Shown here one piece after another: positions 19,139 to 59,235 of a stretch of 64,000 nucleotides of DNA. The position numbers were made by a program, and so were the translations under genes. Numbering within the stretch: the first letter of the stretch is position 1; the number at the start of each line of letters is the position of its first letter. A model generated the notes under the pieces. That model had not been told where the DNA came from. It did not search any database and worked only from the letters and a program-made list of their open reading frames with translations. Source of the stretch: Streptomyces griseorubiginosus (lineage in GTDB: Bacteria > Actinomycetota > Actinomycetes > Streptomycetales > Streptomycetaceae); NCBI RefSeq assembly GCF_001514195.1, contig NZ_KQ948735.1, positions 1,291,413-1,355,412 on the forward strand, read 5' to 3'.

Positions 19139-19203
19139 GCGCCCCTTCAGGGGCGCGGGGAACTGCGCGACAAGCCACGACCAGCCCGCAGTCGACAACG
19201 GAC
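19139..19203. repeat. Dispersed palindromic repeat, copy 1
   Basis: This contains the core GGGGCGCGGGGAACTGCGCG preceded by CCCCTTCAGGGG, a small palindrome. The same core recurs at 31207 and three times at 47160-47395. It lies between the DinB-like gene and the end of the aminotransferase gene. Confidence 0.8.
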
Positions 19204-28765: not shown

Positions 28766-30453
28766 CGGGTGCCCTCCTGCCAGCGGTAGCCGCGCGGGGT
28801 CACCATGCGCCCCGCGATGTCACGGGTGGCCGTGTTGCCCACGGTCACGACCGTCATCATGTCGACCGTCGCCGGGTCGAGCTCGGCCAGGGTCGTCAAC
28901 CGCGCGGACTCGTCCGGCCGCGACGCGTTCCGTACGACACCGACCGGTGTGGCCGGCTCCCGGTGCCCGGCGAGGATCGCCAGCGCCTTGGGCAGCTGCC
29001 AGTCCCGGCCCCGGGAGCGCGGGTTGTAGAAGGTGACCACGATGTCCGCCTCGGCCGCCGCCCGCACCCGCCGCTCGATGACCTCCCACGGGGTGTGCAG
29101 GTCGGACAGGCTGATGGACACGTGGTCGTGGCCCAGCGGGGCCCCCAGGATCGCGGCCGCGGCGAGCGCCGCCGTGACCCCCGGGACGCCGATCACGTCG
29201 ATGTCGTCGGAGGCCTCGGCGAGCGCGGGGGACGCCATCGCGTACACCCCGGCGTCCCCGCTGCCGATCAGCGCGACGGCCTGCCCCTTGCGGGCCTCCT
29301 CGACGGCCGTGCGCGCCCGCTCCTCCTCGGCTCCGAGCCCCGACTCCAGGACCCGGGTGCCGGGCCGCAGCAGATCGCGGATCTGGTCGACGTACTGGTC
29401 GAGCCCGACCAGCACGGAAGCGCGCCGGAGTTCCGCCTTCGCGCGGGGCGTGAGCAGGTCCCGGGCGCCGGGACCGAGCCCGACGACCGCGAGCCGGCCG
29501 CGCGCGGGACGCCGTACGACCGCACAGGTCGCCATGGCGGGCGCCCCGTCCGCACGGACGGACTTCCGCTTGGGCACGAGGAGTTCACCGCCCTCCGCGA
29601 GGGCCGAGGCCTCCGCGACCGAGGGGGTCCCCACGGCGGCGAGGGGCGCGTCGGAGGGGTTCGGGACCTCGACGGCCGCCAACTCCTCGGCGGCATAGGT
29701 GACCACAGGCACCCCGAGCCGCTCGGCCGCCGCCACGATCCCCGGTTCCCCGGCCTTGGCGTCCACGGTGACGAGTGCGGCGACACTACGACGGGACAGC
29801 CCGGCCTCGCGCAACGCGCCCTCGACCAGCTCCAGCACCTCGTCGGCGGGCGCCCCCTTGGAGGCACCGACCCCGACGACGAGGGTGGGCGGACGCAGCA
29901 CGACCTCCCGCTCGGAGGACTCGACGAGCCGGTCCGTGACACGGATGCCGTACGCACCCTCCCCGGCGACCGGCAGCGGAGGCAGCGGCCAGCCCGGCTC
30001 GTTGTGCAGGACGACGGGTTCACCGTCCAGAAGCGCCCGCGACACGGCCGCCACGGCCCCTTCGACGGGCAGCCCGAGGGTGTCGAGCCCCGGCACCCCC
30101 ACCGCGTCGGTCGCCGTCGTCACCACGGGCTCGGCACCGAGCAACTCCCCGACCTCCCGGGCGAGTTCATTGGCGCCGCCGCCATGCCCGCCGACCAGGG
30201 ACACGGCGAACCGCCCGCCCTCGTCGACACACACCACACCCGGGTCGGACGCCTTGTCGCCGAGCAGCGGGGCGATCAGCCGTACGACCGCTCCCGTCGC
30301 CAGGAAGCACACCAGCTGCTCGCACTCCGCGAACGCCAAGCGCACGGCCTCCGCCACGGGACCGTCGTACACCCGCGTGCGGTCCGGCCAGGCCGCGGCC
30401 AGCCGGTCGCGCGCCGCCGCCCCCGCCGCGGTGGCGGAAATAAGGCCGATCAC
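28762..30453 (-). CDS. cobJ: CbiG-CbiH/CobJ fusion: cobalt-precorrin-5A hydrolase and precorrin-3B C17-methyltransferase
   Basis: This 563-residue protein has two parts. Residues 1 to about 330 are CbiG-like, which opens the ring lactone and releases acetaldehyde: FLATGAVVRLIAPLLGDKASDPGVV, SLVGGHGGGANELAREV, LVVGVGASKGAPADEV. Residues from about 333 are a SAM-dependent C17 methyltransferase: LAVVGLGPGARDLLTPRA, IGSGDAGVYAMASPA, DIVVTFYNPRSRGRDWQL. The fusion joins consecutive ring-contraction steps. It starts at GTG 30453, overlapping the cobL stop. Confidence 0.93.
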   Translation of the reverse strand: MIGLISATAAGAAARDRLAAAWPDRTRVYDGPVAEAVRLAFAECEQLVCFLATGAVVRLIAPLLGDKASDPGVVCVDEGGRFAVSLVGGHGGGANELAREVGELLGAEPVVTTATDAVGVPGLDTLGLPVEGAVAAVSRALLDGEPVVLHNEPGWPLPPLPVAGEGAYGIRVTDRLVESSEREVVLRPPTLVVGVGASKGAPADEVLELVEGALREAGLSRRSVAALVTVDAKAGEPGIVAAAERLGVPVVTYAAEELAAVEVPNPSDAPLAAVGTPSVAEASALAEGGELLVPKRKSVRADGAPAMATCAVVRRPARGRLAVVGLGPGARDLLTPRAKAELRRASVLVGLDQYVDQIRDLLRPGTRVLESGLGAEEERARTAVEEARKGQAVALIGSGDAGVYAMASPALAEASDDIDVIGVPGVTAALAAAAILGAPLGHDHVSISLSDLHTPWEVIERRVRAAAEADIVVTFYNPRSRGRDWQLPKALAILAGHREPATPVGVVRNASRPDESARLTTLAELDPATVDMMTVVTVGNTATRDIAGRMVTPRGYRWQEGTR

Positions 30454-31748
30454 TGAGCAACTCCCTCTCGATACGCGGGGTTTCGGACGCCCCACAGCAG
30501 AAAAACCGGATTGGTCGCCGCGAGCCGGGTCACGTCACCCGGCAGCGGCGCGAGCCGGGACGACTGGAGCAGGACGCCCTCGCAGTCGAACCCGGCATCG
30601 GTGAGGGCCGCGCGCACGGCCGGCACCCGGTCCAGGGCGGCCATCGCCACCACGACACTCCGCCGGGCCCGGCGCGCACAGGCGGCCACGATCCCGGGCA
30701 GCTCACGCCCACCACCACCGACGAAGACGGCGTCGGGATCGTCCAGCCCGGCGAGCGCGTCCGGCGCCGACCCGTGCACGACCTGTACGTCGACGCCGTG
30801 CGCGTCGGCGTTGGCACGGATGCGCTCGACTCCGTCGGCGGCCTTCTCGACGGCGACGACAGCAGCCCCGAGCCGCGCACACTCCACGGCCACGGACCCG
30901 GACCCCGCACCGACGTCCCAGACGAGATCCCCGAGCCGCGGCCCCAGCCGGGCCAGCGCGAGCGCCCGCACCTCGAACTTGGTGATCATGGAATCCCGAT
31001 GGGCGAACTCACCTTCTTCCAGGGCCCATTGAGAGGGGGCGGGGGGAGGCCCGGCGACGGTCCGCACACCACCAAGAGCCCGAGACTCGTCGAGACAGAG
31101 AACGACACTCACCCCGGAACCCCAGTCCCGGGCGGCGGCTTCAGCGGGGGTGACCCGTTGGACACGCTCGTCCTTGGTGCCGAGGTCAGAGGCAACGAGC
31201 AGTACGCGCTTCAGGGGCGCGGGGAACTGCGCGACCAGCCCCGACGCAGCCGCACCCGCCCAACCACCTCTCTCGGCACCCCCTGAGGCGAGCGCAGCTC
31301 CAAGCTCCGCAGGCCCGGCCCCGGGCCCCGTAAGCACCGCCACTTTCCCCCGCGCCCGGCACACATTCACCGCCGTCCGCAGATCCCGCCCATGCGTACT
31401 GACCACCACCGCGTCGTCCCACGGCACCCCCACCCGGGCAAAAGCCGCGGCCACAGAAGACACACCAGGACGGACGTCCAACGCACCCGCCCCGAACCGC
31501 TCCGCCAGCACCCGCACGATCCCGAAGAACCCCGGATCCCCCGAGGCCAGCACGACCACCCGGGACCCCTTGTCCAGATGCCGCTCGACGACATCCAGCG
31601 CAGGAGCAAGCGGCCCCAGAACGACCCGCTCGGCGGACGCGGGGACCGCCGCCGCGTCCAGATGCCGCCGCCCGCCCACGACCAGCCCGGCCCCGGCGAG
31701 CACGTCCGCGGGCGGTGCCGAAACCCCCGTACCCACGACCGTGATCAC
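30450..31748 (-). CDS. cobL: Precorrin-6Y C5,15-methyltransferase (CbiE-CbiT/CobL)
   Basis: This 432-residue protein joins a CbiE methyltransferase (LASGDPGFFGIVRVL, VRPGVSSVAAAFARVG) to a CbiT methyltransferase/decarboxylase (MITKFEVRALALARLGPRLGD, WDVGAGSGSVAVE). It methylates C5 and C15 and removes the C12 acetate carboxyl. Residues about 161-180 (including GLVAQFPAPLK) are encoded by a dispersed genomic repeat that is intergenic elsewhere, an in-frame insertion within CbiE. It starts at GTG 31748 with GTGA overlap. Confidence 0.94.
   Translation of the reverse strand: MITVVGTGVSAPPADVLAGAGLVVGGRRHLDAAAVPASAERVVLGPLAPALDVVERHLDKGSRVVVLASGDPGFFGIVRVLAERFGAGALDVRPGVSSVAAAFARVGVPWDDAVVVSTHGRDLRTAVNVCRARGKVAVLTGPGAGPAELGAALASGGAERGGWAGAAASGLVAQFPAPLKRVLLVASDLGTKDERVQRVTPAEAAARDWGSGVSVVLCLDESRALGGVRTVAGPPPAPSQWALEEGEFAHRDSMITKFEVRALALARLGPRLGDLVWDVGAGSGSVAVECARLGAAVVAVEKAADGVERIRANADAHGVDVQVVHGSAPDALAGLDDPDAVFVGGGGRELPGIVAACARRARRSVVVAMAALDRVPAVRAALTDAGFDCEGVLLQSSRLAPLPGDVTRLAATNPVFLLWGVRNPAYREGVAQ
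31207..31258. repeat. Dispersed repeat, copy 2, inside cobL
   Basis: The same GGGGCGCGGGGAACTGCGCG core as at 19139 and 47160-47395, but here read through in frame as part of cobL. Confidence 0.85.
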
Positions 31749-44469: not shown

Positions 44470-44640
44470 GGTGTCCACGCCCTGGTTCGACGAGTCCGGC
44501 GGCGAGAGTTCCTGGCTCCCGGGGGTGTCTACCCCGGTGACAGTGGCGGGACCGCGCCGGATTCGCACCGGCTTCCTCTCCTGCTGCCGTAAATGGCTCC
44601 GGCAGTCCACCACGGGCCTTCGAGACCCGTCAACTTGCTG
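44470..44640 (-). ncRNA. Cobalamin (AdoCbl) riboswitch
   Basis: On the minus strand the region reads GAAGCCGGTGCGAATCCGGC, then GGTCCCGCCACTGTCACCGG (the B12 box), then GAGCCAGGAACTCTCGCCGC, in the order and spacing of cobalamin riboswitches. It lies 85 bp before cobD. It should lower expression of the block when adenosylcobalamin is plentiful. The end points are approximate. Confidence 0.95.
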
Positions 44641-47122: not shown

Positions 47123-47159
47123 CGGCGCCTATGGGGGTGCCGGGTGCGGTTTTCGGGCG

Positions 47160-47395
47160 GCTGCGGGTGCGTTGTGGCTGGTCGCGCAGTTCCCCGCGCC
47201 CCCGCTGCGCTGGGCTTGAGCGGGGCGCTCACTTGGGTGCCGGGTGTGGTTCGCGGGCGGGTGCGGGTCCGTTGTGGCTGGTCGCGCAGTTCCCCGCGCC
47301 CCTGGGGGCGTGCAGCGGGCCTGCGCCACGACGGATCGCCCCTTCAGGGGCGCGGGGAACTGCGCAAAACGCCCGCCCCCACCCAGCCGCAGACA
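47160..47395. repeat. Three dispersed-repeat copies in mixed orientation
   Basis: Copies of the GCGCGGGGAACTGCGC core lie at about 47160-47206 (reverse), 47253-47310 (reverse) and 47338-47395 (forward). They fill most of the 329-bp gap 47123-47451, which otherwise has no gene. Reverse and forward copies can pair to form a large cruciform. Confidence 0.85.
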
Positions 47396-47451
47396 ACCGG
47401 ACGACCCCCGCCCACTGGCCCAACCCACCCGACCCCGCGAAACTGAAACAC

Positions 47452-58410: not shown

Positions 58411-58471
58411 AGGGGCGCGGGGCTGTATCGATGTGCGGCTCCGCCGCGTGGGCGCGACAAGCCCCCACCGG
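58411..58471. repeat. Dispersed palindromic repeat of a third type
   Basis: AGGGGCGCGGGGCTGTATCG, a GCGGCTCCGCCGC hairpin and GGGCGCGACAAGCCCCCACCGG make up an element I recognise as common between Streptomyces genes. It shares GGGGCGCGGGG with the 19139 family. It lies between convergent amaP and SDR stops and may act as a terminator. Confidence 0.7.
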
Positions 58472-58479
58472 CCCGCGCC

Positions 58480-59235
58480 TCAAAACCCATGCCTCATGCC
58501 CCCATCAACGGGCAACATGACCCCGGTCAAATAAGAAGCAGCCGGCGACAGCAAAAACGCCGACACCCGCCCGAATTCCTCCGGCGTCCCATACCGCCGC
58601 AACGGAATCCGGGACTCGTTCGCCGCCCGAGTAGCCTCCGGATCCGCGGACATCCCGTCCAGCTCCCGCACACGATCCGTGTCGATACGGGACGGCAGAA
58701 GCCCCACCACCCGAATTCCGCGCGGCCCCAATTCGTCGGAGAGCGACTTCGCGAACCCGGCGAGCCCGGGCCGCAGCCCGTTCGAAATGGTCAACCCGGG
58801 AAGCGGCTCGTGCACCGACGCCGACAGTACGAACCCGATGACACCCCCGGCCTCCAGCTCCGCCGCAGCCGCCCGAGCCAGACGAACGGCCCCCAGGAAC
58901 ACCGACTCGAACGCGGCCTGCCACTGCTCGTCCGTGTTGTCGGCGACGAAGCCGGGCGCGGGCCCGCCGACACTGATGAGCACCCCGTCGAACCCGCCGA
59001 AATGCTCACGCGCGGCGGCGATCAGAGCCTCCGCCGCCGACGGGTCGGCGTTGTCGACGCCCACGCCCACCGCGTTCGGCCCCAACTCCGCCGCCGCAGC
59101 GAGCGCACGCGACTCGTCCCGCCCGGTCACCACGACCTTCGCCCCGTCCGCGACCAGCTCACGCGCGGCCGCGTTGCCCAGCCCACGGGTCGCTCCGGTG
59201 ACGACGTACACACGGTCCTTCAGCCCAAGATCCAT
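58480..59235 (-). CDS. Short-chain dehydrogenase-like protein lacking the usual catalytic Tyr
   Basis: This 251-residue Rossmann protein has the cofactor motif TGATRGLG at 13-20 and a NADP-type Arg nearby. Where SDR enzymes have YXXXK, this one reads SNGLRPGLAGFAKSL, with Asn and Arg in the Tyr and Lys positions; this N/R variant occurs in a subgroup of SDRs whose reaction is not settled. The ATG at 59235 was chosen 5 bp after the GH15 stop, forming a two-gene unit. Confidence 0.85.
   Translation of the reverse strand: MDLGLKDRVYVVTGATRGLGNAAARELVADGAKVVVTGRDESRALAAAAELGPNAVGVGVDNADPSAAEALIAAAREHFGGFDGVLISVGGPAPGFVADNTDEQWQAAFESVFLGAVRLARAAAAELEAGGVIGFVLSASVHEPLPGLTISNGLRPGLAGFAKSLSDELGPRGIRVVGLLPSRIDTDRVRELDGMSADPEATRAANESRIPLRRYGTPEEFGRVSAFLLSPAASYLTGVMLPVDGGMRHGF

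Follow-up and report, generated by a model that had tools for sequence, protein, structure and literature searches.

A dispersed ~80-bp repeat of Streptomyces lying in frame in cobL, with related copies in other genes

The cobL insert and its relatives

The 64,000-nucleotide stretch of Streptomyces griseorubiginosus DNA analyzed here (contig NZ_KQ948735.1; hereafter the window) carries cobL, which encodes a precorrin-6Y C5,15-methyltransferase fused from CbiE and CbiT, together with intergenic copies of a short dispersed repeat, one further copy of which lies within cobL and is translated (Table 1). The original prediction had placed the same repeat core in cobL and between genes at 19139 and 47160-47395, and core matches at 31214, 19150, 47183, 47283 and 47347 confirmed this, as the translation of the cobL copy confirmed the proposed reading GLVAQFPAPLK. 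The insert is indeed in frame; its extent, given as 31207-31258, was however too small, as the insert aligns along the whole ~80-bp element consensus, from the core to the distal end. CobL is otherwise intact, matching CbiE with 153.8 bits (cut-off 92.9) and CbiT with 99.6 bits (cut-off 78.3).

For comparison, 110 CobL loci (sets of 30 and 80) were collected; some loci of both sets are identical in the gene, and the species are therefore fewer than the loci. The loop could be parsed in 105 of them, and three of the five unparsed loci (L096, L097, L098, L109, and L112) have short loops. The loop usually comprises 9-13 residues. A perfect core was found in only 6 of the 105 parsed loops; each of the remaining 99 shows at least 6 mismatches to it when the CobL-sense strand is read. 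The peptide is thus not generally conserved in CobL. The insert is, however, not confined to this genome, as had been envisaged, since five others share it: besides the genome of the window (G000; G and L labels denote the other genomes and loci compared), the carriers are G189, S. canus 299MFChir4.1 (L086), NRRL B-24085 (L087), S. pseudovenezuelae DSM 40212 (L088), and S. cylindrosporus (L090). The insert is of similar length in G189, L087, and L090, and 7 residues shorter, in frame, in L086 and L088. Furthermore, LUP47B (L089) harbors a long-core variant in CobL. In a tree of 106 cobL genes from which the loop had been removed (L096, L098, L112, and L123 were left out of the 110), the six carriers and L089 fall into a single clade of 8 (Shimodaira-Hasegawa-like approximate likelihood ratio test support 95), the eighth member being S. 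canus DSM 40017 (L091), without the insert. This requires 2 changes, such as a single gain plus a single loss. Thus, a copy of the repeat entered cobL in frame in the ancestor of a small clade and added approximately 25 residues to a loop.

The proposal that the insert, near residue 170, lies in a loop is in line with an AlphaFold model (window CobL with 49 relatives), in which the predicted local distance difference test score is below 50 at residues 157-178, compared to 70.6 overall, and this predicted disordered loop sits between a helix (145-155) and a strand (181-187). The best structural matches of the model are solved CbiT structures. Little effect of the insert on CobL activity is expected. 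In its letter composition, cobL of G000 is an outlier among its relatives, and the GC content at third codon positions is low near the insert (about 0.73).

Table 1. Coordinates of cobL, its insert and the other copies of the repeat in the window
Feature	Position	Strand	Basis or remark
cobL (CbiE+CbiT fusion, precorrin-6Y C5,15-methyltransferase)	30450..31748	-	GTG start, 432 aa, host of insert
Whole inserted element, ~80 bp, outer limits approximate	31205..31288	+	aligned to element consensus
Invariant 20-bp core in cobL	31214..31233	+	core pattern match
Extra CobL loop, residues ~155-180, SGGAERGGWAGAAASGLVAQFPAPLK	31209..31286	-	CobL comparison, AlphaFold, translation
GLVAQFPAPLK, residues 170-180, translated core	31209..31241	-	translation
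Intergenic copy, core	19150..19169	+	core match
Core of intergenic copy, forming with the next a direct pair spaced by exactly 100 bp	47183..47202	-	
Core of intergenic copy, completing that direct pair and also left arm of inverted pair	47283..47302	-	
Intergenic copy, other end type (GCGCAAAACGCCCGCC), 1 mismatch, right arm of inverted pair	47347..47366	+	
Intergenic long-core copy (CTGTATCGATGTGCGGCTCCGCCGCGTGG replacing AACT)	58412..58463	+	

A multicopy repeat family of Streptomyces

The 20-bp core GGGGCGCGGGGAACTGCGCG occurs 245 times with up to 2 mismatches in the 9.87-Mb genome G000 (125 and 120 copies by strand), compared to 2 matches for the reversed pattern. Within the window, 6 matches with up to 3 mismatches were found against 0.13 expected, a number reached in none of 100 shuffles. 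With up to 1 mismatch, the core was identified in 93 of 150 sampled Streptomyces genomes, at 0-867 copies per genome; 67 contain at least 10 copies and 57 none. In a class-wide sample (n = 394), it was present in 25 of 40 genomes of the same genus and, as a single match each, in 4 of 354 others, so that it is multicopy in Streptomyces only. Thirteen Streptomyces plasmid records carry the core, and the phage records searched gave no match. One plasmid match inside an annotated coding sequence (H5) was not counted, being weak (80%) and just within the start of an AMP-binding gene, beside another adenylation gene.

A consensus built from 115 copies (55 stretches of G000 plus the window) begins with a sharp end, A-GGGG, followed by the near-invariant core and a tail, ACCAGCCACGACGCACCCGCACCCG..., that fades near ~80 bp. 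Two end types were found, GCGCG in 101 copies and GCGCA in 14, the latter bounding, on one side, composite elements whose interior contains a conserved inverted repeat. These composites, approximately 240-400 bp long and with both end types, were observed at window 47150-47400 and at L037, L044, L045, L050, L052, L056, L064, L069, and L072; the internal inverted repeat (GGGGTGGGGGGTATCCGTCC ... GGGCGGACACCCCCCACCCC) is common to most of them, and the interior is absent from the window copy. The G000 sample contains 28 close pairs: 7 direct ones and 21 inverted ones whose GGGG ends face each other, with no inverted pair of the opposite polarity. All 7 direct pairs are spaced by exactly 100 bp (L037, L051, L052, L069, and window 47183/47283). 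In the high-copy genome G109, 21 inverted pairs of the same polarity ('-+') and none of the other ('+-') were found, and direct-pair spacings there are mostly 28-35 and 64-92 bp. Furthermore, a long core, in which 28-31 nt replace 4 nt, was seen in at least 8 copies of the G000 stretches (28, 28, 28, 29, 29, 29, 30, and 31 nt; taken only from rows with a recognizable long core, in a pattern listing with many chance matches).

A strong hairpin in the single copy was considered and rejected, as single copies fold no better than shuffles: for four natural repeat loci, folded one by one rather than as an aligned set, z-scores were -0.24 and 0.55 for the two strands of the cobL copy and -0.07, 1.08, and 0.19 for the others. 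Of the six stretches folded, one (window 58470-58570) starts beyond the end of the long copy at 58463 and so does not bear on it. The element itself does not encode a mobilizer.

With respect to genes, the copies are far from evenly placed. A crude codon-usage gene caller, whose counts for G000 and G109 are approximate, assigned 106 of the 115 G000 copies to intergenic DNA, 5 to gene interiors, and 4 to gene edges, while 86% of the sequence is coding. Since this caller splits cobL, it wrongly placed the copy there between genes, and internal copies therefore number at least 6. A flank-coding test flagged 3 of the 115 copies as lying in genes and missed those in cobL and KdgK. The intergenic copies are frequent near stops, with 57 of 99 lying no more than 60 bp away compared to 33% expected, and rare near starts, with 4 of 71 at this distance compared to 35% expected; likewise, 37 of 108 are in convergent regions (14% expected) and 9 of 108 in divergent ones (32% expected). 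At L039:9992 and L065:9991, where the element adjoins a gene end, the TAG stop codon takes its last letter from the first G of the element.

In-gene copies and their exchangeable core

Three further in-gene copies were compared with orthologues in 14 genomes. In the KdgK/PfkB protein, a perfect core is read in the same frame as in cobL in G000, G199, G200, and G201, while G204 (L195) has a long-core variant, G203 (L196) an apparent relic of a long core, and G189 a low-complexity loop in place of the core. KdgK of L195 and L196 additionally contains ~190 extra in-frame residues of imperfect tandem repeats in the same loop, beside the variant core. The StiP/PRTase protein has a perfect short core in 7 genomes, a long core in 3, and none in 4. 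StiP of G007 (L215) carries an inverted doublet with both cores perfect, read through in frame (GPVAQFPAPLKQGVAPADLQGARGTARQAPT). For an ABC exporter, the core is present with 0-1 mismatch in 3 genomes and decayed (3 mismatches) in 1. Across cobL and these three genes, the reading frames used give VAQFPAPL, GARGTARP, and GAGN[GC]ATS. Related copies are thus located in frame in at least 3 other genes, in other frames and on either strand. Within the G000 stretches, copies were also found near the C terminus of MMPL, OppD-like, and EamA proteins and near the N terminus of an ABC-2 protein.

Comparison between relatives revealed that the flanking loop drifts, whereas the core either remains identical or differs only in taking a short or a longer form, both compatible with the frame. 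Among the six CobL carriers (mean DNA identity 0.866, pairwise at least 0.82), the longest invariant run of the gene is 24 bp and coincides with the core, the loop around it being otherwise variable; likewise, the 30-bp core run is the longest invariant run among the four KdgK carriers. At six sites retained between G000 and G189, the core shows 0-1 mismatches and the flanks an identity of 0.83-0.90; at a seventh site, an inverted pair lacks its right half in G189.

In the StiP tree, three sister pairs each combine a short with a long core (G203/G204, support 100; G200/G201, 99; G202/G182, 97), corresponding to 3 changes between the two forms. The long core adds 27 nt, i.e., nine codons, at one site. 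Five long in-gene cores measure 31, 31, 31, 28, and 28 nt (four by pattern, 31, 31, 28, and 28, and that of G201, 31, by alignment), and all are frame-compatible with the 4-nt short form. Compared to the mixed lengths in the G000 stretches, this suggests, from few cases, selection for frame.

Relation to known repeats and possible explanations

Miniature inverted-repeat transposable elements (MITEs) are defined by terminal inverted repeats, a target-site duplication, and an autonomous partner with matching ends. Cod-2 repeats, to go by their name, may belong to Corynebacterium diphtheriae. The sections concerned of earlier papers describe small and in-gene repeats (PMC10969869, PMC2267715, PMC12306157, PMC4681348, PMC1590033, PMC3733652), including in-gene repeats outside Rickettsia (PMC3733652, PMC2267715), and Rickettsia, as well as several bacteria bearing repetitive extragenic palindromes (REPs), are known to have small repeats that entered proteins in frame. 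Within the open literature, subscription papers lying outside the scope of the searches, the tested letter strings of the repeat occur in no paper, and word searches yielded none that we recognized as describing the Streptomyces family.

The likeness to Rickettsia palindromic elements (RPEs) drawn in the original prediction holds for behavior but not for form. As in the RPE account of a MITE review (PMC10969869), a dispersed repeat lies in frame in unrelated genes, here those for CobL, KdgK, StiP, and the ABC exporter, is absent from orthologues, and is read as an extra segment; that account also deems a similar mechanism in other prokaryotes conceivable. However, RPEs are palindromic by name, measure ~150 bp, and lie nearly half in genes in R. 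conorii (PMC10969869, same account), whereas the Streptomyces element is ~80 bp long, forms no notable palindrome as a single copy, lies in genes in less than one-tenth of its G000 copies, and has an exchangeable core. Cod-2 are repeats of coding sequences according to their description in PMC2267715, with which we compare them, while the Streptomyces family is chiefly intergenic. ERIC, BOX, the enterobacterial RU, and MITE-like repeats resemble it in being, by the descriptions given in PMC10969869, PMC2759123, and PMC2229807, small, mobile, inter- and intragenic, and in part translated; they differ, again by description, in their hosts and in that no terminal inverted repeats were seen in single Streptomyces copies.

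In our view, the element is probably a non-autonomous dispersed repeat of Streptomyces of ~80 bp, similar to REPINs (paired REPs) in its organization and to RPEs when it lands in a gene, with a core that is perhaps maintained by conversion. It is found alone, in inverted pairs that share one polarity, or in direct arrays, in most cases a short distance past a stop codon, and its copies would be spread by a transposase supplied in trans. A copy in a gene may persist only if its length and frame are compatible with a disordered loop or linker, and the many other copies could serve as templates for gene conversion that keeps the core uniform and swaps it. A bolder extension, which we regard as possible yet doubtful, is that the dispersed copies throughout the genome act as a reservoir of loop cassettes that are interchangeable and compatible in frame, with ectopic conversion continually exchanging the core of a copy that has entered a gene for other forms (4 nt, 28 nt, 31 nt, inverted doublet); if true, loops of housekeeping proteins would be rewritten repeatedly from intergenic DNA.

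Several observations weigh against the dispersed-repeat reading or its parts. Conversion is inferred, not observed, and the carriers in the invariant-run comparison were chosen by having the core; moreover, in StiP the core run of 21 bp is exceeded by other invariant sequence, the longest such run measuring 47 bp. The three long cores of StiP belong to the same 31-nt sub-variant, and hence the short core may have repeatedly displaced an ancestral long one, or there may have been import from other strains. Filled and empty pairs with G189, which show gain or loss, contain no readable target-site duplication. Searching for the Y1 transposase family PF01797, the only family searched, gave no match in G000 (238 copies). 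In 800 kb of G109, the crude gene caller placed none of 156 copies in genes, which implies that in-gene copies are rare or lineage-bound; nor did any G109 copy have a coding-like frame across it, by a test so strict that the ABC exporter was its sole hit in G000, the copies in cobL and KdgK escaping it.

That the resemblance of cobL to the repeat is mere chance is refuted: the genome is GC-rich and the repeat open in most frames, but a perfect core at the same site of six genomes, with at least 6 mismatches in the 99 other loops, the reversed-pattern control (2 versus 245), and the occurrence in four unrelated genes leave no room for coincidence. Quite unlikely, in our judgment, is a strict REP/REPIN system moved by a REP-associated tyrosine transposase (RAYT) that was lost from G000 or acts from elsewhere. 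The family is of high copy number, intergenic, and proximal to 3' ends, with the convergent bias, inverted dimers, occasional copies inside open reading frames, and ends able to supply stop codons described for REPs in the pertinent parts of PMC3733652 (whose main text names Streptomyces 0 times), and its pairs are of a single polarity (21 to 0 in both G000 and G109). Genomes with PF01797 also have more copies (median 41.5 versus 1, p 0.002, uncorrected for kinship and genome size), an association that speaks for some link. PF01797 is, however, absent not only from G000 but from 14 of 23 genomes with at least 100 copies, and a RAYT as the required mobilizer is unsupported in G000. In addition, the sharp end bears neither a GTAG nor a CGTC tag (the consensus has CTCA before GGGG) and the other end is fuzzy. 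Because the element fails the tests of tag, single-copy hairpin, and cognate transposase, we have not filed it as a REP.

The core could instead be a functional DNA or RNA site, e.g., for 3'-end formation, termination, or a nucleoid protein, with selection rather than conversion keeping it identical, also in genes. The stop-proximal, start-avoiding, and convergent distribution agrees with this, as does the conservation of the core over its flanks at the six retained sites; still, we consider it unlikely, since copies come and go between relatives, the StiP core has been replaced in place by a different sequence, and the 57 copy-free Streptomyces genomes argue against an essential function. Somewhat less improbable is that the short/long switches reflect import of alleles between strains by homologous recombination, or insertion and deletion of a 27-nt cassette, rather than conversion from dispersed copies. 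The shared 31-nt sub-variant fits this, and the left flanks differ at the StiP switch between G203 and G204, so that the exchanged tract may exceed the core; part of the element's right flank is nevertheless common across that switch, which fits a short tract. The many sequenced Streptomyces species, with tree-placed gains and losses and alternative cores in sister species, make it possible to test how small repeats move, remain uniform, and become part of proteins.

As for other features, an Rfam scan of the window matched a cobalamin riboswitch alone (RF00174, 50.8 bits; 44487-44626, minus strand), which thus shares the window with cobL.
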